Assembly: GCA_034620365.1 (NCBI GenBank)
Contig: JAQGEQ010000363.1
Span: 1-64,000, forward strand
DNA length: 64,000 nucleotides
Reading direction: 5' to 3'
From: Pegea sp. RAD2-039
Taxonomy: Eukaryota > Chordata > Thaliacea > Salpida > Salpidae
Each line of letters opens with the position of its first letter. The stretch's first letter is position 1. The notes beneath the pieces were generated by a model. The model had not been told where the DNA came from. It saw only the letters and a list, made by a program, of their open reading frames with translations, and did no database searches. This document shows positions 26,941 through 64,000 of this stretch, piece by piece. Position numbers and translations under genes: made by a program.

Positions 26941-26989
26941 ATTTGCGCTGTTAGATTGTACAGAGACTCCTAAACTCTCAAGTGATAGA

Positions 26990-33834: not shown

Positions 33835-34592
33835 TTATTCTTGTTGTTTTTCATCCTTGATTGAGAATGGAGTGCGTTTGTGCCACCAACAAAATCCGAT
33901 GCAATGACGATATCTATTAATCCAATGAAGAAGAGTATGGTATGATTTGCGATAACGAATTTTAAGATGGTAGAGAACATGATTAAGATGGCTGATACGA
34001 TGATGGCAATGGCTACGATGAGCATACAAATGATGTCGGCATTGATGGATAAGAACTCTGAGTCTTTTGATATAATGATAGAAATGACGAGTATGTTGGT
34101 GGACGGTTTGTTGAACAACTACTTGATGAAAAACTACATGGTCATCATCAGCAAGGTCAGATCTGTTTACAATTTTTATTTAGTTTTAATTTAGGTACTT
34201 TAAACGAATGTGATTTAATTTAAACAAAATTTTAATTCTACGCTGACTTTATGTTTTACTGTATAAAGTTAAAATCAAATTTCTTTTGTTAAATTCATGA
34301 TGAACCTACAAGAATGTAAAAAATAAAATAATAAAAATGAAAACAGTAAACTATTTCTTGAAGCTTTAAGCATTTTGTATAAAAAAGTATAAAATTTCCT
34401 TTTAAGTTAAAACATGAAATCTGGTAATGTAGAAAATAATTTTTAATTATTTTTGCTTAAAATAAGAAAAAACTCTTCAATGTAAATTAAAATAAATACA
34501 AGTGTAAGAACTTACAAATCTTTAGATTCTTCGTCAGCTCTGGCTGCTCCAATAAAAAGCAAAGTTGCAACAAAAAGTAAAATTAATTTCAT
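33835..34592 (-). CDS. Secreted His/Arg-rich Cys peptide, type B copy 1 (134 aa)
   Basis: Two exons, 34592-34516 and 34162-33835, joined by a GT-AG intron; 405 nt in frame. Exon 1 encodes a signal peptide (MKLILLFVATLLF..., cleavage predicted after the AARA site at residue 19) and the start of an acidic stretch (DEESKDL...). Exon 2 encodes LADDD, a His-rich linker and a cationic domain with Cys at 66, 77, 112 and 116 (C-x10-C-x34-C-x3-C), the motif HC-x-x-FCWW and an acidic/Gln tail. The family is not recognised. Role is inferred as a secreted cationic or metal-binding peptide. This is the most diverged type B copy: linker VVVQQTVHQHTRHFYHY instead of the GHYGGGWSRV form of the others. All four Cys and the reading frame are kept, which argues for selection. 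The stop TAA lies inside an AATAAA signal. Confidence 0.8.
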
Positions 34593-35323
34593 CGTTTATT
34601 TTCTTCTGAAGCTCTACAATAGAAGTTAAAAGATAATGATGAAAAGTAACTTGCATTCCCTTTTATAACTTTTTTTTGGGCTTATTACTTGCAACAAATA
34701 ATTTTGTCGTAGGCAGAGACCACCTCCACACAAAAAGGAATTTGTTAGTGGGAAAACTTGCTTTCTAGAACAAAAATTAAAAATAGTCTACCCACGATGA
34801 ATAACATTATTAAAATTTGAAAACAAAAATTCAGTAATTTCATATACAAATGGAGAAACTTATGTTGTTACCTTATAGTCCATTGTTTTATCCACATTTG
34901 TGATTGAACTATTCTGAGTTTATTATTATGTCTTTAACTTAACATGAGAAATAACAATTAAAGCTAACTAATAGTATTTTTTTCACAAATTTACTGCTTT
35001 TAGAAAAACAACCAATATTTTCTTTTGTAGTTACATCAAATTTAAACGCTTAACTAATTGATATAGGTTAAAGTTAATGAATCAATGTAGTAAAGTCGTT
35101 AAGCATACAAGCCCACAAACTTCTCAGCAACATTCGTGTTCCCACATATCCTATTTTCATCAAACTTATCTTTAACCTCCCACTTAATATACATCCTTTA
35201 CACACACCAACACAAATGGGAAATGTTTTTGAGACCTTCAATAAGTGATATATATAGCGCATTAATTAGAAAACTTCATCATACTTTTCTTAAACTTCCA
35301 AGTAAAAAGTCTGAAAAAAGAAA
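34593..35323. promoter_or_regulatory. Divergent upstream region of pair 1
   Basis: 731 bp between the two start codons. On the type B side a TATA box (TTATAAAAGGG on the minus strand, near 34665) precedes the start by about 70-75 bp. On the type A side TATATATAG near 35250 precedes the ATG by a similar distance. A degenerate version of the dyad found in the other pairs (CGTAGG...CCTCCA) lies near 34710-34735. The middle is more diverged than in pairs 2-6. Confidence 0.6.
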
Positions 35324-36038
35324 ATGAAGCTGTTCGCCATTCTTGCTTTTTCTATGTTTGTCTTAGCAGTAGTTGCTGTTGAAGAACAGTAAGTTGTTTA
35401 TTATTTGGTTATAAACTAATCTGTATTTTAAGAAATCTAAATGTTCACTAACTAATTTATTTGTAGATGATAGATCACAAGAATATTAAAATTATTCAAT
35501 GAAATTATTTTGTTTATTTACAATTATTCTTACCTTAACCTTTGCTCTAACTAATCTTACTATTTATTAAATTTTATTATTTTTTATGTGACTCTACAGA
35601 AAGGACAACGAAGCTGCTGATGGTTAGTTTGTTATTGTTTTGTGACATTATTTTTGATATAAATTCGTTTTTCAACTTATTTTAAAATGTATTTTAGACT
35701 CTTATTGATATTGAAATTTAAAACAAACTTTCTATCTTCTAGTTGCAACTAAATCCGACTACTATTGCACTCAACATCACTTCACTATCATCATCAACCG
35801 CTTGAAACATACTCTTCGTATCTGTAGACATCATACTCTTATTGCAACTAGAAGTTGTAGACATCGTATCCACGTTCTCTTGACCTACATCAGTCAATAC
35901 AGAGCCCACATCCGATCAAACAGTTACAGAATCCGTAGTTTCATCTCTAGATACCACGCTTGCCGTCGCAACTGCTACTGGAGCTGCAATCGTATCCTCA
36001 AGCATGCCTACAGAGGTGATGAAGAATCCCAACAATAA
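35324..36038 (+). CDS. Secreted His/Arg-rich Cys peptide, type A copy 1 (127 aa)
   Basis: Three exons, 35324-35388, 35600-35622 (23 nt) and 35743-36038, GT-AG throughout; 384 nt in frame. Exon 1 is a signal peptide (MKLFAILAFSMFVLAVVA, cleavage predicted after residue 18). Exon 2 and the start of exon 3 give an acidic segment (EEQKDNEAAD). The rest is a strongly cationic His/Arg-rich domain with six Cys at 38, 57, 68, 103, 107 and 111, ending GDEESQQ. Cys 57/68/103/107 have exactly the type B spacing, and IHRYxxC-x3-C[YW]W plus the GDE tail are also shared, so types A and B are paralogues. Unlike the other copies, residue 98 is Ser rather than His. The stop codon is embedded in AATAAA. Product function is unknown; an extracellular defence, venom-like or metal-binding peptide is possible. 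Confidence 0.82.
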
Positions 36039-36072
36039 ATATTCTGTCAAATATTTTGCAATTAAATCGTTG

Positions 36073-37600
36073 ATGTTGTAAATCTTTTCTACGATATGCA
36101 TCGGTTTCTGTGCAATACAATATTGAAATTATAACACGTTCGAGTAGAATTATTCGTTAATTTGTAATTCTTTTAACTTTAAATAAAAGCTATTTTGTTT
36201 TAGATATTTATGACCCATTTAAATATAAATTTGTTAAGTTTTTAAATATTAATAATGTGGTCAAAGGTTAGATTATGTCGTGACTCATTTTATTTAAGAA
36301 ATCTATCATTGAAAATTATAGAAAGCTTTTAGATCATTTCTTTTTTATTTCTATGTAAAGAAAAGAAGTTTGATGTATAAGCAACGCTGGATAAATTATT
36401 AAAATAAATGAGGGATCGAATTCTTAAGAAAACTAGTTTCAACAACTTACTTCTTGAATTTAAAAGACACATCTCCTAAAAAAATCAATTTTATAAAAAT
36501 CTCATCAAAAGATTAATAAAAATCACTTTGCTCTAATACTTCACTATCAATATCAATCATCCTAAGTTCAACACAACTTATCATGATAAAAGAAGTTTTC
36601 AGCAGTTGTTCTAGTCATTTGGAGTTATGTCGTATATTTCCAAAAGTTAAGTTATAAAGCTGTGACAAATATTAAAAAACTTACATGATTTTCGTTTGAG
36701 CTTTCGAGAAATTTCATAAAGATTATAAAAAAGTCTTTTTACCTGATTATTAGCATGAAGTGATACAGATTTAGTAGTCTCGTTCGACATTATATCTTTA
36801 ATTCTCAAGTCATTCTCTACAGGAAAAAAATAGAATCAATTACCACTTGTATTGTGTTGTTATGAAGTAGTAATTGAAAACTTTCCATCTTGAAAATAAA
36901 GCTTGCTGATAGCATTGCAATGATATCATTTTCAAACTCTGTCAAGTTATCATACAAACTAAAATTTAGAGATTAATTATTGACCTTTTAATAGCTTGGT
37001 TCATAAGCTAAAAATTAAGAACGATTGGAAATATTCATTTTTCCATTAATATATCTGTTTTAATACTTACAAAATATGTTCATTATTCTCTTGCAGTTAG
37101 TATATTATTCATTTCTTACCAAAATCGAAACACAGGTGCTTTTAGAAGGCCGACTAATTTAAAGAGCAATCAAGAAGGTTTTGCAAACTAAATCCTGCAT
37201 CACGGTTATTTATTTTGATATAACTCGGCATAATAAAAAAGGCCTTACTTTAAATTACCAGCAAGTATTTGCAAAAATATTTTATCAAAAGTAAAGAAAA
37301 ATTGTTCTGTTTAATTTGTATTATTAACCTGTTCTTTCTAACTACTTTAACATTCTAAACCGGTTTTATATACAGAAAAGACTTATAAAAAAATCTGATC
37401 TGCTTGAATATAAGTAGATTATCTAACAGTCTATCTTCAAAAAACTACTATTTCTCACCTAATCTAAAACAAACCATCTTTAAATGTCACTGAAAATATC
37501 TTAAATAAAAACTTTGATCTTTTAAAGGTAATTGTCAAATATAAATCACAAGTTCTCATCAGGCTTAATTGATTGGTTTCAAATGCTTTATTTAATTGCA
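36073..37600. repeat. Array spacer, type I
   Basis: AT-rich DNA between the 3' ends of pair 1 type A and pair 2 type B genes. It is closely similar to 45540-46880 and 49080-50640. It contains no exon; the sequence is part of the duplicated array unit. Confidence 0.75.
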
Positions 37601-37648
37601 TGAAACAACTTTCAGCTGATTAAGCAAGAGCATTTCAAAGATAACACT

Positions 37649-38346
37649 TTATTCTTGTTGTTGTTCATCTCCTTTGAAATGGAAAGTATAGGGTTTTCTC
37701 CACCAGCAGAATCTGATACAATGACGGTATCTGTGAATCCAAACGTTGAGGGTATGAATTGATCTGTGATAACGGAGCTTCAAAAGATGAAGAACGTGGC
37801 TGAGATGGTGGATGCGATGATGACAATGGCGACGGTGAAGATTTAAGCGATGTCTGCATCGATAGATGAAAACTTCGAGTCTTCGGGCATAAAGAACTCG
37901 GGACCAGCCACCACCATAATGTCCGTGAACAGATACTTGGTGAAAGACGAAATGGTCATCATCGGCGAGTTCGGACCTGTTTACAATTGTCAATTAGTAT
38001 AACTTCAATCAAATTCATCTATATAACTCAAAACAAGTAAGAAGAAATATTATTCAATCAGTTAATTGACATTATCTGTAAACAATTAGAATATTATTTA
38101 TCTTAATCGAATAGGTGATGAAGAAGCACTATGTGTAAAAAGTAAAGTTAAGTTTTAATCTATTTATTTGAAACTAAAATCTAGATGTAAATTAATTAAT
38201 TTATTACAATTTTACTGAAACATCGAGATTTTATTTTCTAGTAGAATCAATACAAGTGTAAGAACTTACAAATCTTTAGATTCTTCGTCAGCTCTGGCTG
38301 CTCCAATAAAAAGCAAAGTTGCAACAAAAAGTAAAGTTAATTTCAT
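37649..38346 (-). CDS. Type B peptide, copy 2 (134 aa)
   Basis: Exons 38346-38270 and 37976-37649. The precursor is signal peptide MKLTLLFVATLLFIGAARA, then DEESKDLSELADDD, then a linker with GHYGGGWSR, then the cationic domain. About 18 of 115 mature residues are His. Cys are at 66, 77, 112 and 116. Residue 64 is Tyr here, where copies 5 and 6 have His; copy 5 is otherwise almost identical to this one, so the two are recent duplicates. The linker, RHCHHRIHHL and HCIRFCWWRKP blocks can serve as the type B reference. Confidence 0.82.
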
Positions 38347-39047
38347 CGTTTATTTTCTTCTCAGATACTACAATAGAAGTTGAAAGATAATGATGAAAAG
38401 TAACTTGCATTCCCTTTTATAACTTTTCTTGTCCTTATTATTTGCAACAAACAGTTTTCTTGTAGGCAGATATCATCCACCTACACACTGAGTAGTGGGA
38501 AAACTTCCTTCCTTCAATAGAAAATAAAAATCAGTTTCCTAAATGTAAGATGCAAAGTTTGTAGATATTAATAATAAGATTAAAAATAAATGTTTACGAT
38601 TAACAATTAATTGATTTAATGTTTCATCTAATAAAATGAATTATTACTTTTACTTCGTTTAAAAAACTCTTGTTGCATCTAAACTTACTTATTCTTTAAG
38701 GTTCTTTCGTATGTTATTTAAGCAACAGAAAATTTATCAAGTGATATTACTGATTACCATATATTTTTATATTTATTGAGATCAACTTAGATTGCAGTTT
38801 ACATTTTTACATCAAATGAGTCCGCTCAGATACCAACTATAAATTTTTCTGCATTTATTCCTGTTCCCACACATCTTCTCTATTAATCATACCTTCGGAT
38901 ACCCACCTATTCCACATCCTCAAAAACACACCAACACAAATCGGAAATGTTTTTGAGACCTTCAATATTTGATATATATAGCGCATTGATTAGGAAACTT
39001 CATCATACTTTTCTTAAACTTCCAAGTAAAAAGTCTGAAAAGAGAAA
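38347..39047. promoter_or_regulatory. Divergent upstream region of pair 2
   Basis: 701 bp. Type B TATA box at 38415-38421 (TATAAAA on the minus strand, about 70 bp from the ATG). Type A TATA box TATATATA at 38973-38980 (about 70 bp from the ATG). An inverted repeat TGTAGG-N13-CCTACA spans 38461-38485, just beyond the type B TATA box. The 130 bp before the type A TATA box, rich in CCACA/CACACC words, is conserved in all pairs. Confidence 0.65.
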
Positions 39048-39762
39048 ATGAAGCTGTTCGCCATTCTTGCTTTTTCTATGTTTGTCTTAGCAGTAGTTGC
39101 TGTTGAAGAACAGTAAGTTGTTAATTATTTTGTTATAAATTAATCTGCATTTTAAGAAATCTAAATGTTCACTAACTAATTTATTTGTAGATGATAGATC
39201 ACAAGAATATTAAAATTATTCAATGAAATTATTTTGTTTATTTACAATTATTCTTACCTTAACCTTTGCTCTAACTAATCTTACTACTTATTAAATTTTA
39301 TTATTTTTTATGTGACTCTACAGAAAGGACAACGAAGCTGCTGATGGTTAGTTTGTTATTGTTTTATGACATTATTTTTGATATAAATTCGTTTTTCAAC
39401 TTATTTTAAAATGTATTTTAGACTCTTATTGATATTGAAATTTAAAACAAACTTTCTATCTTCTAGTTGCAACTAAATCCGACTACTATTGCACTCAACA
39501 TCACTTCACTATCATCATCAACCGCTTGAAACATACTCTTCGTATCTGTAGACATCATACTCTTATTGCAACTAGAAGTTGTAGACATCGTATCCACGTT
39601 CTCTTGACCTACATCAGTCAATACAGAGCCCACATCCGATCAAACAGTTACAGAATCCGTAGTTTCATCCATAGATACCACGCTTGCCGTCGCAACTGCT
39701 ACTGGAGCTGCAATCGTATCCTCAAGCATGCCTACAGAGGTGATGAAGAATCCCAACAATAA
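39048..39762 (+). CDS. Type A peptide, copy 2 (127 aa)
   Basis: Exons 39048-39112, 39324-39346 and 39467-39762. The encoded precursor is identical to copies 5 and 6 and can be taken as the family consensus; it differs from copy 1 only at residue 98 (His). Both introns are nearly identical to those of copy 1, so the pair separated or was homogenised very recently. Confidence 0.84.
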
Positions 39763-39789
39763 ATATTCTGTCAAATATTTTTGCAATTA

Positions 39790-42700
39790 AATCGTTGATG
39801 TTGTAAATCTTTTCTACGATATGCATCGGTTTTTGTGCAATACAATATTGAATATTTGAGAAGTTTGGTTAACATCATTTATTAGTTTTAAGCTGTTGGC
39901 TTGTATATGACTCTTTTATAATTGAAGTATGGTATTCAGACAGACGGCAACGTTGAATGTCTTTTAAAGTTTTTGTCATTTCATTTTATATTCTTTTGAT
40001 TTGGGTACAACTAAATGCTCGGGTATCTACCAGCAACCACTAACTCAGGCAATTTTTGATTAAGCACTTTTAACGGTTTTCATCATTTTCAAATTGTCGA
40101 AGCCGTGGAGTTAAATTTTATTCTCTTATTAAAAGTTTTTAAATTACAATAAATTCAGCAAAAAAGATGAGTCAAGTAGTATTAAAGCTGAACACCAAAA
40201 ACTTTTTTTAATTTTAACTAATTACATCTTTTGATTTAGTAAATACACATGCAATGATAATAATTGAAAAAGGCAAAAGACTTATCAGCTATTTGTCCAT
40301 GGAAAAATGTATTATAAAAGAAGACGGTATAGATGATCACAGCTTACTACAGTTTTTGATCAATGAAAAAATGAGCCTTACTTACAATTGAACACACGCC
40401 AGATACAGTAATTAAGTATCAAGCAACTTCTTTTTATACATAAGCTTATGGATGAACATAACCACAAAACTTCATTTTTCTATCATGCACCCACAACCCT
40501 TTACAAACTAAAAACTTTCTAAAAGTAATAAATGAGAAACATGACACAACAACTAGATTTACAACAATAAAGCTTATATTTCACACATAACATTCAAACC
40601 TTATGGATGATAACTGAACTCTTAAACTTAATGAAAATAGACTAGGATTAAATACTCTTGCAGTATACGAAGTTCTTTCTTGTGAACTACTGTCAAAAAA
40701 ATAAAAAGGATAAAATTTAAAACACAGTTTTGTGTCTGGCTATAAGATTTATTAGTTTTAATACTTTTAAGCAGAACATTTTTTAATCAATTCCTTACTC
40801 TAAATACTTTAATTTATCTTTTAATACAACTGGGTATTAACCACTATTGATAAAATAAAATTACAAAGCCAACTGAAAAACGGCAGCAATATCAAATTAT
40901 TTCAAACTGATATATTCCACGGCAAATAATCTGCGTAAAAATTGGGATATTCTATAAACTACTTTTGTACAAATTCAAACACAGAATTCTTCAGCCACAA
41001 AAAATGCCAAAGTAACGAAAGAAAAACCGATAATAATATAAATATATATATTTACTTAAGATTAAAAACGTTATGTTGATTTTTACGTATGCAGATATCA
41101 AGCTATTATCTTGTAATCCTTCAAAACTTCAAACTGCACTACACACTGTAGAAAACTGGTCTACGAATTGGCAGCTCAGAATCCAGCCCACAAAGTCTGA
41201 ACTTATAACTTTTTCTCGTAAACCAGCTGTAAATTGCTCAACCAATACTCCATCAATAGATTTATTATTCAACGAGTATCTTCGGTCCTAGACCTTGGTC
41301 TTACTCTCTCATTTGACTTTAAATGGCGCGATTATGTTTCTAAAATCTTTGCAAAATCAATCAACCTTGTCTTCCTTATTATAAAGAAAGACCTTTGATT
41401 CTAAGGACCCATGATTTCTTATCAATCTTTTCAAATTGTACGTACGTCTAATTCTTGAATACAATGTTAGTGCATGGATGCCATATCAAGTTAGTGATAT
41501 CAAAAAAATCGAATCCGTTCAGTCCACATTTACGAGATTAATATGCAGGAAACTTAATATTAAATAAGATAGTTATAAACATCGTCTCAGTTTCTTCGAT
41601 TTAGATACCTTGGAAATTCGACGGATTAAATACAACTTAATTCTTATTTTTAAAATTATCAACAATTTAATTGACATTCAGTTTGATGATTTATTTTCTA
41701 TTAATCCTTTCCTCAAGTTATATCAGCTCAGACGACACACATTACACCTTAATAAGCCTATAACACCTAGTACATTGGTCCAAGCAAATTTTTTCTCATA
41801 CCATACAATTAGTACATGGAACCAGCTGCCATCAGACATTGCCATGTCGAAGTCACTCGCGTTGTTCAAGCAGAAATTGAACCGTTATAATATTGCCAAC
41901 ATTGTCATTTCTAAACTGTGATTTTTTTATCTTTTTTATATTTTTAACATTCCATGTAATTGTTCACTGTTATATACTTTGAGTGATATCGAAATACCAT
42001 GTGTTACATCTTTTACTTTCTATATTTTTGACTAAATAGGTGTTATTTGTGAGAATGTGTGTTAGCAAGAAGTACTCTCTTCAGGTACCCTCCTTCGCAT
42101 TTATTGTAATAAATAAATAAATTAAGAAAAGTTAAGTTCAGTTTATTAAAGATCTACCTTAGGGATAATTAATAACAGCTTATATGAACTTAAAATAACT
42201 TGTAAGTCTTTCTAATCTCCAAACAAACTTTTATTGAAGAAATTTTTATTTTATTACAACGTCTATTCGTTATTTGTAAATCATCATGCTCATGTTAGTA
42301 TGAAATTAAGGAAACCTTGATTAGTAGGATAAAGGTGAGACTTAATGACGAAAAGTCTTGAGTATTTTTTGTAGCTAAGTATCATTAGATTATTAAGTTT
42401 AAAAATAGTTTAAATTTTAACAGGTGACTGGCGTTAGTTTTTAGAAAATTTAATTTAAGACTCATAATTATTACTACCATTTAATAGAATGCACAATATG
42501 AAAAAATATAATTTTGGGTATGATACTCTTTCTTAATTAGTTCTTAACAATTTTTAAATTGTTCTTTGGTGAAAGGGTTGAAGATTTGTCTAATGGTATG
42601 TATGTGGATACAAATTGATGTAAATAATTTCCAGATGATTCTAGTGAAGCTCAGAAGAAAACTTAAATGCCAAAGTGTATCGGCCAGTCTGGGCAACTAC

Positions 42701-43350
42701 TTAAGGCAACAATGTTCAATAACATGTGGTTCTGGATAGAAGAAGCACAATGTCAATTGTGTGTCTCTAGAAAAATCCTAATTTCATGACAGAAGTATGA
42801 AATGATGTTCCAGTATTTGATTCTGCTTACATGTGCTTTAATTGCTAATTTTTTTAAATCATCAGAATAATAAAGCATTCTAAAAGCCGACAAACTAACA
42901 GACATTTTAAACAGAAGTTAGAAACTACATTTTGGACAAAAACATCAAAATGAATAATGAAATTAAATCAATTTTGGTGGAATATATTAGAGAAAAAAAA
43001 TTTTAAGATAATTATCTTACAAATAACTCAATTATTTTATCAAACTTTGTGATTTTTATTATTAGTTAGTAGTTAAGTATTACTTTAAGAACCTAAATTG
43101 AAGTTATGTACAGAAACGATTTGAAAAACCTGGTCTGCTTGAATACTGGGAAAGCTAATAAAGACTTAAATTTACCCAAAGTTATCATTTAGCAACTTAT
43201 ATAACCTACAGTTTAAACTCAGGAGTAATAGCTAAATACAGAAGAATTTTGTAATTTAGCAGCTAATCTCTAACAAATCAAAGTGATAAATTAAAAATAC
43301 TTAAAAACAATATATACAATGGCTCAAATGCTTTATTTAATTGCATGAAG
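39790..43350. repeat. Array spacer, type II, enlarged by an insertion
   Basis: The flanks (39790-40282 and 42782-43350) match the type II spacer at 52810-53890. About 2.5 kb at roughly 40283-42781 is absent from that partner and contains LINE sequence, so it was inserted after the spacer type arose, or was lost from the other copy. The insert outside the LINE shows no exon. Confidence 0.7.
41060..42120 (+). mobile_element. 5'-truncated LINE, reverse transcriptase end and 3' tail
   Basis: Begins near the catalytic motif: 41073-41291 encodes TYAD-IKLLS, where LINE reverse transcriptases normally have YADD, so one Asp of the pair is missing. It continues with TVENWSTNWQLRIQPTKSE. 41610-41921 encodes the LEIRRIKYNLILIFKIINNLID region. 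A frame break separates the two. The element ends near 42120 with a short AATAAATAAATA-like tail, typical of CR1/L2-type LINE 3' ends. It is the best-preserved of the four related fragments in the window. Confidence 0.85.
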
Positions 43351-43393
43351 CAAATTTCAGGTGATTAAGCAAGAGCATTTCAAAGATAACACT

Positions 43394-44093
43394 TTATTCT
43401 TGTTGTTGTTCATCTCCCTTGAAATGGAAAGTATAGGGTTTTCTCCACCAGCAGAAACTGAGACAATGACGGTATCTGTGAATCCAAACCTGGAGGGTAT
43501 GAATTGTTCTGTGATAGCGGAGCTTCAAAAGATGAAGAACGTGGTTGAGATGGTGGATGCGATGTTGACAATTGCGACGGTGAAGATATAAGCGATGTCT
43601 GCATTGACGGATGAAAACTTCGAGTCTTCGGGCATAAAGAACTCGGGACCAGCCACCACCATAATGTCCGTGGACAGATACTTGGTGAAAGACGAAATGG
43701 TCATCATCGGCGAGTTCGGACCTGTTTACAATTGTCAATTAGTTTAACTTCAATCAAACTCATCTATAAAACTCAAAACAAGTAAGAAGAAATATTATTC
43801 AATCAGTTAATTGACATTATCTGTAAACAATTAGAATATTATTTATCTTAATCGAATAGGTGATGAAGAAGCACTATGTGTAAAAAGTAAAGTTAATTCT
43901 TTTAATCTATTTATTTGAAATTTAAATTTAGATATAAATTAATTAATTTATTACAATTTCACTGAAACATCGAGATTTTATTTTCTAGTAGAATCAATAC
44001 AAGTGTAAGAACTTACAAATCTTTAGATTCTTCGTCAGCTCTGGCTGCTCCAATAAAAAGCAAAGTTGCAACAAAAAGTAAAGTTAATTTCAT
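43394..44093 (-). CDS. Type B peptide, copy 3 (134 aa)
   Basis: Exons 44093-44017 and 43721-43394. All four Cys, the signal peptide and the acidic segment are intact. About ten residues differ from copy 2, all in the cationic domain: Arg64, Gln65, Tyr71, Asn76, Gln78, Asn85, Thr98, Gln103, Leu113, Ser114. Four of these are non-conservative, so this copy has drifted or been diversified while the linker stayed unchanged. Confidence 0.82.
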
Positions 44094-44793
44094 CGTTTAT
44101 TTTCTTCTGAAGTTCTACAATAGAAGTTAAAAGATAATGATGAAAAGTAACTTGCATTCCCTTTTATAACTTTTTTGTCCTTATTATTTGCAACAAACAG
44201 TTTTCTTGTAGGCAGATATCATCCACCTACACACTGAGTAGTGGGAAAACTTCCTTCCTTCAATAGAAAATAAAAATTAGTTTCCTAAATGTAATATGCA
44301 AAGTTTGTAGATATTAATAATAAGATTAAAAACAAATGTTTACGATTAACAATTAATTAATTTAATGTTTCATTTAATAAAATGAATTATTACTTTTACT
44401 TCGTTTAGAAAACTCTTGTTGCATCTAAACTTACTTATTCTTTAAGGTTCTTTCGTATTTTATTTAAGCAACAGAAAATTTATCAAGTGATATTACTGAT
44501 TACCATATATTTTTATATTTTTTGTGATCAATTTAGATTGCAGTTTACATTTTTACATCAAATGAGTCCGCCCAGATGCCAACTATCAACTTTTCTGCAA
44601 ATTTTACAGCTCCCACACATCTTCTCTATTAATCATACCTTCGGATACCCACCTATTCCACATCCTCAAAAACACACCAACACAAATCGGAAATGTTTTT
44701 GAGACCTTCAATAACTGATATATAAAGCGCATTGATTGGAAAACTTCATCATACTTTTCTTAAACTTCCAAGTAAAAAGTCTGAAAAGAGAAA
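44094..44793. promoter_or_regulatory. Divergent upstream region of pair 3
   Basis: 700 bp, closely similar to pairs 2 and 5. The dyad TGTAGG-N13-CCTACA lies at 44207-44231. The type B TATA box lies near 44163 and the type A TATA box (TATATAAAG form) near 44720. Confidence 0.62.
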
Positions 44794-45508
44794 ATGAAGC
44801 TGTTCGCCATTCTTGCTTTTTCTATGTTTGTCTTAGCAGTAGTTGCTGTTGAAGAACAGTAAGTTGTTTATTATTTGGTTATAAACTAATCTGTATTTTA
44901 AGAAATCTAAATGTTCAATAACTAGTTTAGTTTTAGATGATAGATCACAAGAATATTAAACTTTTCAATGAAATTAGTTTGTTTATTTACAATTACTCTT
45001 ACCGTAACTTCTTGCTCTAACTAATCTTACTATTTACTAACTTTTACTATTTTTTATGTGACTCTACAGAAAGGACAACGAAGCTGCTGATGGTTAGTTT
45101 GTTATTGTTTTATGACATTATATTAGAAATAAATTCTTTTTTCAACTTATTTTAAAATGTATTTTAGACTCTTATTGACATTAAAAATTAAAACAAACTT
45201 TCTATCTTCTAGTTGCAACTAAATCCGACTACTATTGCACTCAACATCACTTCACTATCATCATCAACCGCTTGAAACATACTCTTCGTATCTGTAGACA
45301 TCATACTCTTATTGCAACTAGAAGTTGTAGACATCGTATCCACGTTCTCTTGACCTACATCAGTCAATACAGAGCCCACATCCGATTAAACAATTACAGA
45401 ATCCGTAATTTCATCCATAGATACCACACTTGCCGTCGCAACTGCTACTGGAGCTGCAATCGTATCCTCAAGCATGCCTACAGAGGTGATGAAGAATCCC
45501 AACAATAA
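44794..45508 (+). CDS. Type A peptide, copy 3 (127 aa), most variant
   Basis: Exons 44794-44858, 45070-45092 and 45213-45508. Four residues depart from the type A consensus: Leu88, Asn90, Asn95 and Thr102. All lie between the second and third scaffold Cys, where the chain should be most free to vary. Introns are also more diverged than those of copies 1 and 2. Confidence 0.83.
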
Positions 45509-45539
45509 ATATTCTGTCAAATATTTTTGCAATTAAATC

Positions 45540-46880
45540 GTTGATGTTGTAAATCTTTTCTACGATATGCATCGGTTTTTGTGCAATACAATATTGAAAT
45601 TATAACACGTTCGAGTAAAATTATTCATTAGTTTATAAATGTTTTAATGTTACATAAAAGCTATAATGTTTTAGATAGTTATGACTTATTTAAATATAAA
45701 TTTGTTAAGTTTTTAAATATTAATAATGTGGTCAAAGGTTAGATTATGTCGTAAGTCATTTTATTTAAGAAATCTATCATTGAAAATTATAGAAAGCTTT
45801 TAGATCATTTCTTTTTTATTTCTATGTAAAGAAAAGAAGTTTGATGTATAAGCAACGCTGGATAAATTATTAAAATAAATGAGGGATCGAATTCTTAAGA
45901 AAACTAGTTTCAACAACTTACCTCTTGAATTTAAAAGACATATCTCCTAAAAAAATTAATTTTATAAAAATCTCATCAAAAGATTAATAAAAATCACTTT
46001 GCTCTAATACTTCACTCTCAATATCAATCATCCTAAGTTCAACACAACTTATCATGATAAAAGAAGTTTTCAGCAGTTGTTCTAGTCATTTGGAGTTATG
46101 TTGTATATTTCCAAAAGTTAAGTTATAAAGCTGTGACAATTATTAAAAAGCTTACATGATTTTCTTTGAGCTTTTGAAAAATCTCATAAAAATTATAAAA
46201 AAGTCTTTTACCTGATTAGCATGAAGTGATACAGATTTAGTAGTCTCGTTCGACGTTATATCTTTAATTCTCAAGTCATTCTCTACAGGAAAAAAATAGA
46301 ATCAATTACCACTTGTATTGTGTTGTTATGAAGTAGTAATTGAAAATTTCCATCTTGAAAATAAAGCTTGCTGATAGTATTGCAATGATATCATTTTCAA
46401 ACTCTGTCAAGTTATCATACAAACTAAAATTTAGAGATTAATTATTGACCTTTTAATAGCTTGGTTCATCAGCAAAAACTTATTTATTTTGATATAACTC
46501 GGCATAATAAAAAAGGCCCTACTTTAAATTACCAGCAAGTATTTGCAAAAATATTTGATCAAAAATAAAGAAAAATTGTTCTGTTTAATTTGTATTGTTA
46601 ACCTGCTCTTTCTAACTACTTTAAAATTCTAAACCGGTTTTATATACAGAAAAGACTTATACAAGAGTCTGGTCTGCTTGAATATAAGTAGATTATCTAA
46701 CAGTCTATCTTTAAAAAACTACTATTTCTCACCTAATCTAGAACAAACCATCTTTAAATGTCACTGAAAATATCTTAAATAAAAACTTTGATCTCTGAAA
46801 GGTATTTGTCAAATATAAATCACAAGTTCTCATCAGGCTTAATTGATTGGTTTCAAATGCTTTATTTAATTGCATGAAGC
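45540..46880. repeat. Array spacer, type I, with internal deletion
   Basis: Matches the other type I spacers, but a block of about 190 bp present at 36990-37210 is missing around 46470. No exon. Confidence 0.7.
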
Positions 46881-46922
46881 AAATTTCAGGTGATTAAGCA
46901 AGAGCATTTCAAAGATAACACT

Positions 46923-47622
46923 TTATTCTTGTTGTTGTTCATCTCCCTTGAAATGGAAAGTATAGGGTTTTCTCCACCAGCAGAATCTGATACAATGACG
47001 GTATCTGTGAATCCAAACGTTGAGGGTATGAATTGTTCTGTGATAACGGAGCTTCAAAAGATGAAGAACGTGGCTGAGATGGTGGATGCGATGTTGACAA
47101 TGGCGACGGTGAAGATGTAATTTACGTCTGCATCGATGGATGAGAACTTGGACTCTTCGGGCATAAAGAATTCGGGCGTAGCCACCACCATAATGTCCGT
47201 GGACAGATACTTGGTGAAAGACGAAATGGTCATCATCGGCGAGTTCGGACCTGTTTACAATTGTCAATTAGTTTAACTTCAATCAAATTCATCTATATAA
47301 CTCAAAACAAGTAAGAAGAAATATTATTCAATCAGTTAATTGACATTATCTGTAAACAATTAGAATATTATTTATCTTAATCGAATAGGTGGTCAAGAAG
47401 CACTATGTGTAAAAAGTAAAGTTAATTCTTTTAATCTATTTATTTGAAATTTAAATTTAGATATAAATTAATTAATTTATTACAATTTCACTGAAACATC
47501 GAGATTTTATTTTCTAGTAGAATCAATACAAGTGTAAGAACTTACAAATCTTTAGATTCTTCGTCAGCTTTGGCTGCTCCAATAAAAAGCAAAGTTGCAA
47601 CAAAAAGTAAAGTTAATTTCAT
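46923..47622 (-). CDS. Type B peptide, copy 4 (134 aa)
   Basis: Exons 47622-47546 and 47250-46923. It has its own set of changes: Lys18 in the signal peptide, YARIL in place of WSRVL at 50-54, VQVLIH at 59-64, Arg68-Lys69, His71, Gln78, Thr98. All Cys are kept. Variation here is concentrated in the linker and just before the first Cys, unlike copy 3. Confidence 0.82.
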
Positions 47623-48339
47623 CGTTTATTTTCTTCTCAGATACTACAATAGAAGTTGAAATACAATGATTTAAAATATCTTGCATTCCCTTTTATAACA
47701 TATTTTTGATCAGTATATAACTTCGATGTAGGCAGAGATCACCTACACATTGATAATTTCCTTCCTAAAACAGAGGAAAAAGACAAGTTTTTTTTTAATG
47801 TTTTATGATAACTTTGAAGATACTAACAATTATACAAATTGCTTGATTCTTCAGAAATATTTAATTAATCTTATTCTCTCTATAAAATTCGAAATAAAAT
47901 TGATATTTTATTTTTGGATAAATCCTTTTATGTTTTTAAAAACTCATGTTGTATACTAACTTTTTTAATATATATATTCTTTTCCATTTTTAAAACAGTG
48001 AAACTTGTACCATCTATTCATAATGATTATAAAATATTTTGTATAAATACGTTAAAATTATAGTTTAATGAAATTAATTTAGATTGCAATTTACGGTTTT
48101 ACATTAAATGTTTCCACCCAGATACCAACTATCAATTTTACTACAATTATTCCTATTGCCACATATCTTCTCTATAAATCATACCTTTTCATACCCACCT
48201 ATTCCACATCCTCAAAAACACACCAACACAAATCGGAAATGTGTCTAAGACCTTCAATAATTGATATATATAGCGCATTGATAGGAAAACTTCATCATAC
48301 TTTTCTTAAACTTCCAAGTAAAAAGTCTGAAAAAAGAAA
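47623..48339. promoter_or_regulatory. Divergent upstream region of pair 4
   Basis: 717 bp, of a second sequence class shared with pair 6. The dyad is kept as TGTAGG-N9-CCTACA at 47727-47747, with a spacer four bases shorter than in pairs 2, 3 and 5. The type A TATA box (TATATATAG) lies near 48266. The central part is unlike pairs 2, 3 and 5. Confidence 0.62.
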
Positions 48340-49055
48340 ATGAAGCTGTTCGCCATTCTTGCTTTTTCTATGTTTTTCTTAGCAGTAGTTGCTGTTGAAG
48401 AACAGTAAGTTGTTTATTATTGGTTATAAACTAATCTGTATTTCAAGAAATCTAAATGTTCAATAACTAGTTTAGTTTTAGATGATAGATCACAAGAATA
48501 TCAAAAATATTCAATGAAATTATTTTGTTTATTTACAATTATTATTAACTTAACTTCTTGCTCTAACTAATCTTACTATTTACTAACTCTTATTATTTTT
48601 TATGGGACTCTACAGAAAGGACAACGAAGCTGCTGATGGTTAGTTTGTTATTGTTTTGTGACATTATTTTTGATATAAATTCTTTTTTCAAACTTATTTC
48701 AAAATATATTTTAGACTCTTATTGATATTGAAATTTAAAACAAACTTTCTATCTTCTAGTTGCAACTAAATCCGACTACTATTGCACTCAACATCACTTC
48801 ACTATCATCATCAACCGCTTGAAACATACTCTTCGTATCTGTAGACATCATACTCTTATTGCAACTAGAAGTTGTAGACATCGTATCCACGTTCTCTTGA
48901 CCTACATCAGTCAATACAGAGCCCACATTCGATCAAACAGTTACAGAATCCGTAGTTTCATCCATAGATACCACGCTTGCCGTCGCAACTGCTATTGGAG
49001 CTGCAATCGTATCCTCAAGCATGCCTACAGAGGTGATGAAGAATCCCAACAATAA
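48340..49055 (+). CDS. Type A peptide, copy 4 (127 aa)
   Basis: Exons 48340-48404, 48616-48638 and 48760-49055. One residue differs from consensus, Phe13 for Val in the signal peptide; two further base changes in exon 3 are synonymous. The second intron donor and acceptor are standard. Confidence 0.83.
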
Positions 49056-49079
49056 ATATTCTGTCAAATATTTTTGCAA

Positions 49080-50640
49080 TTAAATCGTTGATGTTGTAAA
49101 TCTTTTCTACGATATGCATCGGTTTTTGTGCAATACAATATTGAAATTATAACATGTTCGAGTAAAATTATTCATTAGTTTATAAATGTTTTAATGTTGC
49201 ATAAAAGCTATAATGTTTTAGATAGTTATGGCGTATTTAAATATAAACTTGTTAAGTTTTTAAATGTAACGTAATTAATACTAACGTGGTCGATATTTTT
49301 ATTTTGTCGTAACTCATTTTATTTCAGAAAACTATCATTGAAATAAATATAAAGCTTTTAGATCATTTCTGTTTTATTTCTATGTAAAGAAATTAATTTT
49401 GATGTATTAGCAATGTTGGATAAAATATTAAAATAAATGAGGAATCAAATTCTTAAAAAAGACTATCTTGATCAACTTACTTCTTGAATTTAAAAGACAT
49501 ATCTCCTAAAAAAATCAATTTTATAAAAATATCATCAAAAGATTAATAAAAATCACTTTGCTCTAATACTTCACTCTCAATATCAATCATCCTAAGTTCA
49601 ACACAACTTATCATGATAAAAGAAGTTTTCAGCAGTTGTTCTAGTCATTTGGAGTTATGTTGTATATTTCCAAAAGTTAAGTTATAAAGCTGTGACAAAT
49701 ATTAAAAAGCTTACATGATTTTCTTTGAGCTTTTGAAATATCTCATAAAAATTATAAAAAAGTCTTTTTACCTGATTATTAGCATGAAGTGATACAGATT
49801 TAGTAGTCTCGTTCGACATTATATCTTTAATTCTCAAGACATTCTCTACAGGAAAAAAATAGAATCAATTACCACTTGTATTGTGTTGTTATGAAGTAGT
49901 AATTGAAAACTTTCCATCTTGAAAATAAAGCTTGCTGATAGTATTGCAATGATATCATTTTCAAACTCTGTCAAGTTATCATACAAACTAAAATTTAGAG
50001 ATTAATTATTGACCTTTTAATAGCTTGGTCCATAAGCTAAAAATTAAGAACGATTGGAAATATTCATTTTTCCATTAATATATCTGTTTTAATACTTACA
50101 AAATAAGTTCATTAATTCCTTGTAGTTAGTATATTATTCATTTCTTACCGAAATCGAAACACAACTGGTTTTGGAAGGCCTATTAATTTAAAGAACAATC
50201 AAGAAGGTTTTGCAAACTAAATCCGGTATCACTGTTATTTATTTCGATATAACTCGGCATAATAAAAAAGGCCTTACTTTAAATTACCAGCAAGTATTTG
50301 CAAAAATATTTGATCAAAAGTAATGAAAAATTGTTCAGTTTAATTTGTATTGTTAACCTGTTCTTTCTAACTACTTTAACATTCTAAACCGGTTTTATAT
50401 ACAGAAAAGACTTATAAAAAAATCTGATCTGCTTGATTATTAGTAGATTAACTAACAGTCTATCTTTAAAAAACTACTATTTCTCACCTAATCTAGAACA
50501 AACCATCTTTAAATGTCACTGAAAATATCTTAAATAAAAACTTTGATCTCTTAAAGGTATTTGTCAAATATAAATCACAAGTTCTCATCAGGCTTAATTG
50601 ATTGGTTTCAAATGCTTTATTTAATTGCATGAAGCAAATT
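49080..50640. repeat. Array spacer, type I
   Basis: Full-length type I spacer, closely similar to 36073-37600, with some diverged patches around 49250-49480. No exon. Confidence 0.72.
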
Positions 50641-50677
50641 TCAGGTGATTAAGCAAGAGCATTTCAAAGATAACACT

Positions 50678-51375
50678 TTATTCTTGTTGTTGTTCATCTC
50701 CCTTGAAATGGAAAGTATAGGGTTTTCTCCACCAGCAGAATCTGATACAATGACGGTATCTGTGAATCCAAACGTTGAGGGTATGAATTGATCTGTGATA
50801 ACGGAGCTTCAAAAGATGAAGAACGTGGCTGAGATGGTGGATGCGATGATGACAATGGCGACGGTGAAGATTTAAGCGATGTCTGCATCGATGGATGAAA
50901 ACTTCGAGTCTTCGGGCATAAAGAACTCGGGACCAGCCACCACCATAATGTCCGTGGACAGATACTTGGTGAAAGACGAAATGGTCATCATCGGCGAGTT
51001 CGGACCTGTTTACAATTGTCAATTAGTATAACTTCAATCAAATTCATCTATATAACTCAAAACAAGTAAGAAGAAAAATTATTCAATCAGTTAATTGACA
51101 TTATCTGTAAACAATTAGAATATTATTTATCTTAATCGAATAGGTGATCAAGAAGCACTATGTGTAAAAAGTAAAGTTAAGTTTTAATCTATTTATTTGA
51201 AACTAAAATCTAGATGTAAATTAATTAATTTATTACAATTTCACTGAAACATCGAGATTTTATTTTCTAGTAGAATCAATACAAGTGTAAGAACTTACAA
51301 ATCTTTAGATTCTTCGTCAGCTCTGGCTGCTCCAATAAAAAGCAAAGTTGCAACAAAAAGTAAAGTTAATTTCAT
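50678..51375 (-). CDS. Type B peptide, copy 5 (134 aa)
   Basis: Exons 51375-51299 and 51005-50678. It differs from copy 2 at residue 64 (His for Tyr) in the exon 2 product. Its 3' flank and intron also follow copy 2, supporting duplication of a two-pair block. Confidence 0.82.
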
Positions 51376-52070
51376 CGTTTATTTTCTTCTGAAGTTCTAC
51401 AATAGAAGTTAAAAGATAATGATGAAAAGTAACTTGCATTCCCTTTTATAACTTTTTTGTCCTTATTATTTGCAACAAACAGTTTTCTTGTAGGCAGATA
51501 TCATCCACCTACACACTGAGTAGTGGGAAAACTTCCTTCAATAGAAAATAAAAATTAGTTTCCTAAATGTAATATGCAAAGTTTGTAGATATTAATAACA
51601 AGATTAAAAACAAATGTTTACGATTAACAATTAATTGATTTAATGTTTCATCTAATAAAATGAATTATTACTTTTACTTCGTTTAAAAACTCTTGTTGCA
51701 TCTAAACTTACTTATTCTTTAAGGTTCTTTCGTATGTTATTTAAGCAACAGAAAATTTATCAAGTGATATTACTGATTACCATATATTTTTATATTTATT
51801 GTGATCAATTTAGATTGCAATTTACGTTTTTACATCAAATCAGTCCGCCCAGATACCAACTATCAACTTTTCTGCATTTATTCCTGTTCCCACACATCTT
51901 CTCTATTAATCATACCTTCGGATACCCACCTATTCCACATCCTCAAAAACACACCAACACAAATCGGAAATGTTTTTGAGACCTTCAATAATTGATATAT
52001 AAAGCGCATTGATTAGGAAACTTCATCATACTTTTCTTAAACTTCCAAGTAAAAAGTCTGAAAAGAGAAA
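51376..52070. promoter_or_regulatory. Divergent upstream region of pair 5
   Basis: 695 bp, of the class shared with pairs 2 and 3. Dyad TGTAGG-N13-CCTACA at 51489-51513, TATA boxes on both sides. Confidence 0.62.
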
Positions 52071-52785
52071 ATGAAGCTGTTCGCCATTCTTGCTTTTTCT
52101 ATGTTTGTCTTAGCAGTAGTTGCTGTTGAAGAACAGTAAGTTGTTAATTATTTTGTTATAAACTAATCTGTATTTTGGGAATTCTAAATGTTCAATAACT
52201 AATTTAGTTTTAGATGATAGATCACAAGAATATTAAATTTTTTCAATGAAATTATTTTGTTTATTTACAATTACTCTTACCTTAACCTTTGCTCTAACTA
52301 ATCTTACTATTTATTAATTTTTACTATTTTTTATGTGACTCTACAGAAAGGACAACGAAGCTGCTGATGGTTAGTTTGTTATTGTTTTATGACACTATTT
52401 TTGATATAAATTCGTTTTTCAACTTATTTTAAAATGTATTTTAGACTCTTATTGACATTAAAAATTAAAACAAACTTTCTATCTTCTAGTTGCAACTAAA
52501 TCCGACTACTATTGCACTCAACATCACTTCACTATCATCATCAACCGCTTGAAACATACTCTTCGTATCTGTAGACATCATACTCTTATTGCAACTAGAA
52601 GTTGTAGACATCGTATCCACGTTCTCTTGACCTACATCAGTCAATACAGAGCCCACATCCGATCAAACAGTTACAGAATCCGTAGTTTCATCCATAGATA
52701 CCACGCTTGCCGTCGCAACTGCTACTGGAGCTGCAATCGTATCCTCAAGCATGCCTACAGAGGTGATGAAGAATCCCAACAATAA
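52071..52785 (+). CDS. Type A peptide, copy 5 (127 aa)
   Basis: Exons 52071-52135, 52347-52369 and 52490-52785. The precursor matches the consensus exactly. Its 3' flank follows copy 2 rather than copies 1, 3 and 4, starting just after the AATAAATATT block. Confidence 0.84.
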
Positions 52786-52809
52786 ATATTCTGTCAAATA
52801 TTTTTGCAA

Positions 52810-53890
52810 TTAAATCGTTGATGTTGTAAATCTTTTCTACGATATGCATCGGTTTTTGTGCAATACAATATTGAATATTCGAGAAGTTTGGTTAACATCA
52901 TTTATTAGTTTTAAGCTGTTGGCTTGTATATGACTCTTTTATAATTGAAGTATGGTATTCAGACAGACGGCAACGTTGAATGTCTTTTAAAGTTTTTGTC
53001 ATTTCATTCTATATTATTTTGACTTGAGCACAACTAAAAGCTTTGGTATCTACCAGCAACCACTAACTATGACAATTTATGACCAAGCACTTTAAACGGT
53101 TTTCATCATTTTTAAATTGCCAAAGCCGTGGAGTTTCATCCTACTATTAGAAGTTTTTAAATTATCATAAATTCAACAAAAAAGATGAATTAAGTAGTAT
53201 TAAAGGTGAACAACAAAAACATTTTTTATTTTTAACTAATTACATCTTTTGATATATTATATACCCATGCAATGATAATATTTGAAAAAAGGAAAAGACG
53301 AATAGCCAAAAATGCTATTTTGATGACAGAAGTATGAAATCATGTTCCAGTATTTGATTCTGCTTACATGTGCTTTAATTGCTAATTTTTTTAAATCATC
53401 AGAATAATAAAGCATTCTAAAAGCCGACAAACTAACAGACATTTTAAACAGAAGTTAGAAACTACATTTTGGACCAAAACATCAAAATGAATAATGAGAT
53501 TAAATCAATTTTGGTAGAATATATTAGAGAAAAAAAATTTTAAGATAATTATCTTACAAATAACTCAATTATTTTATCAAACTTTGTGATTTTTATTATT
53601 AGGTAGTAGTTCAGTATTACTTTAAGAACCTAAATTGAAGTTATGTACAGAAAAGATTTGAAAAACCTGGTCTGCTTGAATACTGGGAAAGCTAATGAAG
53701 ACTTAAATTTACCTAAAGTTATCATTTAGCAACTTATATAACCTACAGTTTAAACTCAGGAGTAATAGCTAAATTCAGAACAATTTTGTAATTTAGCAGC
53801 TAATCTCTAACAAATCAAAGTGATAAATTAAAAATACTTAAAAACAATATATACAATGGCTCAAATGCTTTATTTAATTGCATGAAGCAA
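52810..53890. repeat. Array spacer, type II, without the insertion
   Basis: About 1.1 kb matching the outer parts of 39790-43350. The junction at about 53302-53320 marks where the 2.5-kb LINE-containing block sits in the other copy. The minus-strand open frame at 53257-53442 is not supported as a gene. Confidence 0.7.
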
Positions 53891-53930
53891 ATTTCAGGTG
53901 ATTAAGCAAGAGCATTTCAAAGATAACACT

Positions 53931-54630
53931 TTATTCTTGTTGTTGTTCATCTCCCTTGAAATGGAAAGTATAGGGTTTTCTCCACCAGCAGAATCTGATA
54001 CAATGACGGTATCTGTGAATCCAAACGTTGAGGGTATGAATTGCTCTGTGATAACGGAGCTTCAAAAGATGAAGAACGTGGCTGAGATGGTGGATGCGAT
54101 GATGACAATGGCGACGGTGAAGATTTAAGCGATGTCTGCATCGATGGATGAAAACTTCGAGTCTTCGGGCATAAAGAACTCGGGACCAGCCACCACCATA
54201 ATGTCCGTGGACAGATACTTGGTGAAAGACGAAATGGTCATCATCGGCGAGTTCGGACCTGTTTACAATTGTCAATTAGTTTAACTTCAATCAAACTCAT
54301 CTATAAAACTCAAAACAAGTAAGAAGAAATATTATTCAATCAGTTAATTGACATTATCTGTAAACAATTAGAATATTATTTATCTTAATCGAATAGGTGA
54401 TCAAGAAGCACTATGTGTAAAAAGTAAAGTTAATTGTTTCAATCTATTTATTTGAAACTAAAATCTAGATGTAAATTAATTAATTTATTACAATTTCACT
54501 GAAACATCGAGATTTTATTTTCTAGTAGAATCAATACAAGTGTAAGAACTTACAAATCTTTAGATTCTTCGTCAGCTCTGGCTGCTCCAAAAAAAAGCAA
54601 AGTTGCAACAAAAAGTAAAGTTAATTTCAT
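53931..54630 (-). CDS. Type B peptide, copy 6 (134 aa)
   Basis: Exons 54630-54554 and 54258-53931. Changes against copy 5 are Phe14 for Ile in the signal peptide and Ala98 for Ser. The upstream sequence beyond about 30 bp of 5' leader is of the pair 4 class although the coding part follows copies 2 and 5, so this copy is a mosaic. Confidence 0.82.
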
Positions 54631-55347
54631 CGTTTATTTTCTTCTGAAGTTCTACAATAGAAGTTGAAATACAATGATTTAAAATATCTTGCATTCCCTT
54701 TTATAACATATTTTTGATCAGTATATAACTTCGATGTAGGCAGAGATCACCTACACATTGATAATTTCCTTCCTATAACAGAGGAAAAAGACAAGTTTTT
54801 TTTAATTGTTTTATGATAACTTTGAAGATACTAACAATTATACAAATTGCTTGATTCTTCAGAAATATTTAATTAATCTTATTCTCTCTATAAAATTCGA
54901 AATAAAATTGAGATTTTATTTTTGGATAAATCCTTTTATGTTTTTAAAAACTCTTGTTGTATACTAACTTTTTTAATATATATATTCTTTTCCATTTTTA
55001 AAACAGTGAAACTTGTACCATCTATTCTTAATGATAATGAAATATTTTTTATAAATACGTTAAAATTATAGTCTAATGAAATTAATTTAGGTTGCAATTT
55101 ACGTTTTTACATTAAACGTTTCCACCCAGATACCAACCATCAACATTTCTGCAATTATTCCTGTTTCCACGCATCTTCTCTATTAATCATACCTTCGGAT
55201 ACCCACCTATTCCACATCCTCAAAAACACACCAACACAAATCGGAAATGTTTTTGAGACCTTCAATAATTGATATATATAGCGCATTGATTGGAAATCCT
55301 TATCATACTTTTCTTAAACTTCCAAGTAAAAAGTCTGAAAAAAGAAA
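54631..55347. promoter_or_regulatory. Divergent upstream region of pair 6
   Basis: 717 bp, of the same class as pair 4. Dyad TGTAGG-N9-CCTACA at 54735-54755. Type A TATA box TATATATAG near 55273. Confidence 0.62.
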
Positions 55348-56062
55348 ATGAAGCTGTTCGCCATTCTTGCTTTTTCTATGTTTGTCTTAGCAGTAGTTGC
55401 TGTTGAAGAACAGTAAGTTGTTAATTATTTGGTTATAAACTAATCTGTATTTTGGGAATTCTAAATGTTCAATAACTAATTTAGTTTTAGATGATAGATC
55501 ACAAGAATATTAAAATTATTCAATGAAATTATTTTGTTTATTTACAATTATTCTTACCTTAACCTTTGCTCTAACTAATCTTACTATTTACTAACTCTTA
55601 TTATTTTTTATGTGACTCTACAGAAAGGACAACGAAGCTGCTGATGGTTAGTTTGTTATTGTTTTATGACATTATTTTTGATATAAATTCGTTTTTCAAC
55701 TTATTTTAAAATGTATTTTAGACTCTTATTGACATTAAAAATTAAAACAAACTTTCTATCTTCTAGTTGCAACTAAATCCGACTACTATTGCACTCAACA
55801 TCACTTCACTATCATCATCAACCGCTTGAAACATACTCTTCGTATCTGTAGACATCATACTCTTATTGCAACTAGAAGTTGTAGACATCGTATCCACGTT
55901 CTCTTGACCTACATCAGTCAATACAGAGCCCACATCCGATCAAACAGTTACAGAATCCGTAGTTTCATCCATAGATACCACGCTTGCCGTCGCAACTGCT
56001 ACTGGAGCTGCAATCGTATCCTCAAGCATGCCTACAGAGGTGATGAAGAATCCCAACAATAA
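55348..56062 (+). CDS. Type A peptide, copy 6 (127 aa), end of array
   Basis: Exons 55348-55412, 55624-55646 and 55767-56062. Consensus precursor. Similarity to the other type A units stops abruptly at about 56072, ten bases after the stop, immediately beyond the AATAAA signal. This marks the right border of the amplified array. Confidence 0.84.
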
Positions 56063-63768: not shown

Positions 63769-64000
63769 GTCCGTTAAAGTCCTAATGAGCTTGCTTATGT
63801 CAGAGTGCTTACAGATAAGAAACAATAATTAAACTTGCACGAGTGTGTACCTGCTGCAAATAAGTCTTGTTGTTTTGTACTTATTGTTTTACTGTTAAGC
63901 TTTCTGCCTTATAGTTTTTAAAAGCTCTGAAATAAACTAATGCAAAATACTTCTCCCATTGTGCTTATTTAGTTTATATATGTTTTCAAGCTGCTAACAT

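Follow-up and report, generated by a model that had tools for sequence, protein, structure and literature searches.

What does a genome gain from carrying two kinds of small gene in strict head-to-head alternation, and what might their products be? The question is raised by a stretch of DNA from the salp Pegea sp. RAD2-039 (GenBank assembly GCA_034620365.1), in which six genes of one type (B) and six of another (A) form a tandem array of divergent pairs. The window analyzed here is the first 64,000 bases of contig C21 (JAQGEQ010000363.1, 2.64 Mb), in an assembly of 105.7 Mb and 387 contigs. Few tunicate species have yielded secreted effector peptides, although among all animals this group is the sister of the vertebrates. 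A family of two branches kept as divergent pairs, with amplification and shuffling as the sequences here indicate, offers a compact case for the origin, pairing and diversification of lineage-restricted peptides.

Organization of the gene array

An initial annotation, made from the letters alone, had described twelve intact genes in strict head-to-head order, and reconstruction by exon search and splicing bears this out. All 12 genes were rebuilt, six B genes on the minus strand (two exons, 134 residues each) and six A genes on the plus strand (three exons, 127 residues each), with GT-AG introns throughout, intact frames and no internal stop codon. The order B(minus)/A(plus) is repeated six times without exception from the stop codon of B1 at 33835 to that of A6 at 56062, with a unit period ranging from 3253 to 5745 bp and, in all six units, a gap of 695-731 bp between the B and A start codons. 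Unit 1 comprises B1 (33835..34592; exon 1 34592-34516, exon 2 34162-33835) and A1 (35324..36038; exons 35324-35388, 35600-35622 and 35743-36038), and unit 2 comprises B2 (37649..38346; exons 38346-38270 and 37976-37649) and A2 (39048..39762; exons 39048-39112, 39324-39346 and 39467-39762). They are followed by B3 (43394..44093; exons 44093-44017 and 43721-43394) with A3 (44794..45508; exons 44794-44858, 45070-45092 and 45213-45508), and by B4 (46923..47622; exons 47622-47546 and 47250-46923) with A4 (48340..49055; exons 48340-48404, 48616-48638 and 48760-49055). The last two units contain B5 (50678..51375; exons 51375-51299 and 51005-50678) and A5 (52071..52785; exons 52071-52135, 52347-52369 and 52490-52785), then B6 (53931..54630; exons 54630-54554 and 54258-53931) and A6 (55348..56062; exons 55348-55412, 55624-55646 and 55767-56062). 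B1 is the most diverged B copy, with about 60% amino acid identity to B2-B6 in exon 2 and a nearly identical exon 1.

Homology of the two gene types and search for relatives

In an alignment of 15 rows, the cores of the A type show 26-32% identity to the first B row, and the invariant positions include four cysteines (C40, C51, C86 and C90, spaced C-x10-C ... C-x3-C) along with R41, H53, R54, L58, I80, Y83, W92, D103 and E104. For each of the four A-B pairs tried, the core alignment score beats all 2000 composition-preserving shuffles (z 5.5-6.9). Because the cores are similar beyond composition and the C-x10-C...C-x3-C spacing and DE tail are common to both, A and B are, as judged from their sequences, homologous and form paralogous branches of one family; the A core has two more cysteines than that of B. 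The two unrecognised families of the initial annotation are thus merged into one, for which, as it had supposed, no described family was matched.

Profile searches of Pfam, NCBIfam and the PDB gave no convincing match. Pfam returned no family for B2 and only ParBc_2 for A, at E 0.14 and under the cut-off, while matches of single rows among the 15 to DUF6577 (E 0.0096), Ogr_Delta (0.016) and DUF3136 (0.11) were taken as chance. Nothing convincing emerged from NCBIfam (single-row matches at E 0.12 and 0.15), and the PDB held no match up to E 10. Against 5.8 billion proteins, A had no match and B had one, P0001 (84% identity, 119 residues, from a 983-bp contig), which is probably a genomic open reading frame (ORF) since its N-terminus reads by eye like the end of an intron. 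The protein search with B and A yielded no match to periculins. Bacterial/archaeal and viral contigs contained 86 and 27 pattern stretches, respectively, none of them confirmed as a relative, and an origin from either source was rejected on that basis. Term searches of the open-access literature brought up no paper recognised as describing this A/B family, which does not demonstrate its absence from print, and a term search aimed at divergent pairs of antimicrobial peptide (AMP) genes retrieved no paper that matched most of its terms.

Duplication and exchange among copies

Searching the assembly with B and with A recovered the six array copies of each and one extra of each on contig C194. These two, A7 with its start at 70326 on the minus strand and B7 with its start at 71038 on the plus strand, are both intact and lie head-to-head. 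The assembly yielded no further convincing copy, with A7 as a query included; for large families such counts are minimum values. A match on contig C35 (E 0.167, one stop) was set aside as chance. Apart from short repeat-like matches, the 40 kb around the C194 pair resembles the window solely in the genes and the DNA closely flanking them, and C194 therefore represents a separate locus. A7 (C194:69541-69954, minus) has an extra C-terminal stretch of HHKVGRP-type repeats ahead of its acidic tail that is not present in the six array A proteins.

Divergence among the copies is distributed as a mosaic. Unit divergences were tabulated for eight of 15 possible unit pairs, in which A exon 3 differs by 0-2.0% versus 3.8-9.5% for A intron 1. 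Units 2-6 are 89-97% alike to unit 5 over kilobases, and their intergenic DNA falls into two types, one in units 2, 3 and 5 (differing by 2.7% in the pairs tabulated) and the other in units 4 and 6 (5.2%), with 23-25% between types; the intergenic DNA of unit 1 is 31% diverged from that of unit 5. Between B1 and B5, exon 1 is 1.3% diverged, the intron 40% and exon 2 30%. B7 (C194:71296-71619) is 94% identical to B2 in exon 2, its intron and exon-1 DNA lie inside the range of 30 shuffles, and the protein sequence encoded by its exon 1 retains 73% identity; conversion between the unlinked loci is likely for this exon 2. Such a mosaic speaks for gene conversion or unequal exchange among copies, also across loci. 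On the evidence of these divergences, the strict pairing in the array arose when one pair was duplicated in tandem, with mosaic exchange between the copies, and not through six independent pairings; as such it does not amount to six-fold evidence of joint action.

Synonymous (dS) and non-synonymous (dN) divergence, calculated from exon 2 of B and exon 3 of A, is 1.20 and 0.27 for B1-B2, 0.86 and 0.33 for A1-A7, and 0.19 and 0.036 for B2-B7. By these values, with dN/dS of about 0.2-0.4, the old paralog splits are under purifying selection. A dN well under dS between old paralogs and an A exon 3 less diverged than A intron 1 mark the genes as more than chance reading frames. The constraint on old splits, together with 12 intact frames, speaks against an array of decaying, non-functional duplicates, which the lack of a synonymous excess in B2-B6 might otherwise suggest. 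Likewise, units so alike over kilobases are error-prone for assemblers, but they differ in period, spacers and intergenic type, and a B-like ORF, the 84% identical P0001, exists in another genome. We regard mis-assembly or decay as a highly improbable account of the array.

The intergenic region and possible joint use of A and B

Intergenic regions were aligned for units 1, 4 and 5 and the C194 pair (four of seven). All four, the unlinked pair included, have TATA-like boxes at corresponding places on both sides and, on the A side, a common block, ACACCAACACAAAT; in the 695-bp region of unit 5 (51376..52070) the boxes lie near both start codons. Their conservation suggests working promoters. 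A pair that remains head-to-head at an unlinked locus, with genes intact and core promoters conserved, favors shared use of A and B. The argument from pairing to joint action made in the initial annotation is therefore kept in part: pairing within the array was copied, whereas the pair maintained on C194 does favor shared use. Its suggestion of a two-component toxin gained no specific support.

Such shared use could go as far as a two-part system in which co-expressed A and B form an obligatory heteromer, acting as an effector, pore former or signal. Both branches are intact and head-to-head at both loci, the TATA-like boxes are conserved on both sides and the cysteine frame is common to A and B; the array pairing, however, was copied rather than repeatedly assembled, and an obligatory heteromer appears unlikely on present sequence evidence. 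A more specific version, in which A and B, expressed from a common region, would form an obligate heteromer peculiar to a tunicate lineage, its fold new and braced by disulfides, and would serve secreted immunity or the metal-dependent hardening of a secretion, is more doubtful again. If the products do act together, the layout would provide a signature by which two-part peptide effectors could be recognised in genomes.

Predicted products and their possible function

The products had been described as a signal peptide, an acidic segment, a cationic core and an acidic tail, and net charges, computed without histidine on nine of the 14 proteins, fit this layout: -4 to -7 for the acidic segment, +15 to +23 for the core and -1 to -3 for the tail. 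The core spans 76-123 residues with 4 or 6 cysteines and 10-20 histidines. By eye, the N-terminus is hydrophobic and offers a plausible site for signal cleavage, the core of B is preceded by a dibasic site (ARR or IKR), and the tails contain RGD in A and KGD or KD in B, where a short GGG is also found. From these features we tentatively propose that A and B are lineage-restricted secreted defence peptides, a reading that seems quite possible though short of probable and that overlaps in part with its alternatives, as these do with one another.

Under this proposal, a small secreted-peptide gene would have given rise to the A and B branches, probably via inverted duplication, both being read outward from a region of about 700 bp. 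The pair would have come to occupy two unlinked loci and been amplified here to six tandem units shuffled by gene conversion or unequal exchange. Each product would be a preproprotein comprising a signal peptide, an acidic segment, a His/Arg-rich core (C-x10-C, C-x3-C) and, at its end, an acidic tail containing DE and glutamine, from which a cationic peptide would be secreted or stored in granules. The acidic flanks may neutralise the core until processing, the core histidines may adjust charge to pH or coordinate metal, copy number would lift dose, and A and B would be co-expressed and act against microbes.

A role in defence is supported by the acidic/strongly basic/acidic charge layout with 4 or 6 core cysteines, by the small, multicopy, tandem nature of the family and its mosaic exchange, by purifying selection on old splits and by the dibasic site before the B core. 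The combination of cationic core and signal peptide (the latter by eye), typical of AMPs, was found in the nine proteins analyzed for charge. Lineage restriction, with P0001 as the sole outside relative found, parallels the AMP families of Hydra as presented in the parts of that source used here (PMC10945409), and tunicates are described as producers of His-rich AMPs whose activity depends on pH (PMC5465252, PMC5198042). Several results weigh against defence peptides. The core is long for an AMP, and in none of the five cores tried does the mean hydrophobic moment at the helical angle of 100 degrees exceed that of shuffles (132-594 of 1000 shuffles reach it), so that a classic amphipathic helix was dismissed. 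Evaluated at the beta angle, the moment is somewhat raised in A2 (21 of 1000) and not clearly raised in the remaining four cores (61-213 of 1000). Both proteins were modelled by AlphaFold2 as largely helical at low confidence, with a predicted local distance difference test score of 66.4 for B and 52.8 for A and predicted template modelling scores of 0.31 and 0.30. Within B2-B6, the 21 variable codons comprise 18 non-synonymous and 3 synonymous ones, compared with about 20% synonymous sites, and thus give no evidence of recent constraint on B. Synonymous to non-synonymous changes stand at 1:11 for B3-B5 and 0.5:13.5 for B4-B5; positive selection on B3/B4 is suggestive only, the 3 of 21 over B2-B6 being unremarkable.

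A further point against defence is that lineage restriction and gene arrays are compatible with matrix or egg-coat proteins as well. As structural secretions of the tunic, mucus, house or egg coat, A and B would set through disulfides, metal-histidine bonds and enzymatic crosslinks in their glutamine tails. Conserved cysteines, a Gln/Glu tail after the invariant DE, tandem amplification that increases dose, and histidine numbers that remain high although only two histidine columns (H12 and H53 in A1) are invariant across 15 rows are all consistent with such a role. The array copies are nevertheless without long low-complexity or repetitive sequence, short repeats being confined to A7, and so high a net charge would be atypical of a bulk matrix protein; we consider a structural role rather unlikely. 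The same histidines, 16-21 in the B proteins and A7 and 10-11 in A1-A3, with 4-7 cysteines per precursor, could instead belong to secreted proteins binding zinc, copper or another metal. The two invariant columns make no fixed site evident, and no known metal protein was matched in the Pfam or PDB searches, which leaves metal handling improbable. Should the products be ordinary dosage-amplified defence or matrix peptides, they would add one more orphan family.

The proposed defence peptides can be set beside three known systems, compared by description. Like the clavanins and other tunicate AMPs (Styela clava, Ciona), A and B are cationic and come from a tunicate, and clavanins, which are not known to contain cysteine, are also His-rich; A and B differ in their long core with 4 or 6 cysteines and in helical amphipathicity not above chance. 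In the parts of the sources cited, clavanins are described as His-rich, helical tunicate AMPs with pH-dependent activity (PMC5465252, PMC5198042), 23 residues in length (PMC4904370). The periculins and other lineage-restricted AMPs of Hydra are, in the sections drawn upon, small proteins with a signal peptide, bipartite charge, a cysteine pattern, tandem-duplicated clustered paralogs and no homologues outside their lineage (PMC10945409). A and B share this general format but belong to a different phylum, and those sections do not mention a divergent pair layout for Hydra AMPs. The SpTransformer (Sp185/333) genes of sea urchins are, within the text available from that source, small and clustered, with a leader in exon 1, the mature protein in exon 2, a Gly-rich and a His-rich region and recombination among copies, and the word "cysteine" occurs 0 times in it (PMC5491942). 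The B gene resembles them, as so described, in being a clustered, two-exon, His-rich gene of a deuterostome with recombining copies, whereas A and B have 4 or 6 core cysteines and divergent pairs and A has three exons. The SpTransformer format of Gly-rich region, RGD, His-rich region and two exons is found in neither type: A has RGD, three exons and no Gly-rich region, and the two-exon B gene encodes a tail with KGD or KD and, by eye, only the short GGG.

Genomic surroundings

A single-exon gene for TRMT10C (mitochondrial RNase P subunit 1) lies downstream of the array (59247-60659, plus), matching Pfam tRNA_m1G_MT and human TRMT10C structures. Its best named match is Phallusia (40% identity), and in a tree of 24 rows it falls in a seven-row clade with Phallusia mammillata (support 98/95), which is flagged as a long branch. 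Another TRMT10C, P0002, is 84% identical to that of the window; P0002 and P0001 may come from the same organism, in which case B would evolve about as fast as TRMT10C.

Among animals, possession of a cellulose synthase that carries a GH6 domain is a mark of tunicates. On contig C14, CelA-like exons (71914-72770) and, about 1.7 kb downstream, a GH6 exon (74494-74718; region 72994-76218) lie on one strand within 3 kb. The GH6 match is barely above its cut-off (27.5 bits versus 27) and is matched in none of 14 control genomes, whereas the CelA match, at 106.8 bits far under cut-off, is not specific on its own because 11 of the 14 match that model too. The exons are arranged as in a cellulose synthase-GH6 gene and, with the grouping of TRMT10C, probably agree with a tunicate source. 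An origin in Hydra, to which AT content and the periculin-like layout might point, was rejected on the basis of these two findings and of the 105.7-Mb assembly size. A search for COX1 gave no match.

Within the array, the long spacer of unit 2 (39763..43393, 3631 bp) contains about 2.5 kb of central sequence that is not in the other spacers and partially matches repeats dispersed in the window. One such repeat lies at 41610-41921 (plus), with further copies in the window, e.g. at 26101-26956; its ORF resembles the end of a long interspersed nuclear element reverse transcriptase. Beyond TRMT10C, an intron-containing gene at about 61110-63770 (plus) has CCCH-like and RING-like motifs and is makorin-like by eye. 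At the start of the contig, positions 4-4602 consist of about 575 copies of the 8-bp unit TCATCTAT; the GC skew of this tract is extreme, and it may be a satellite that lies at the end of a contig or chromosome.

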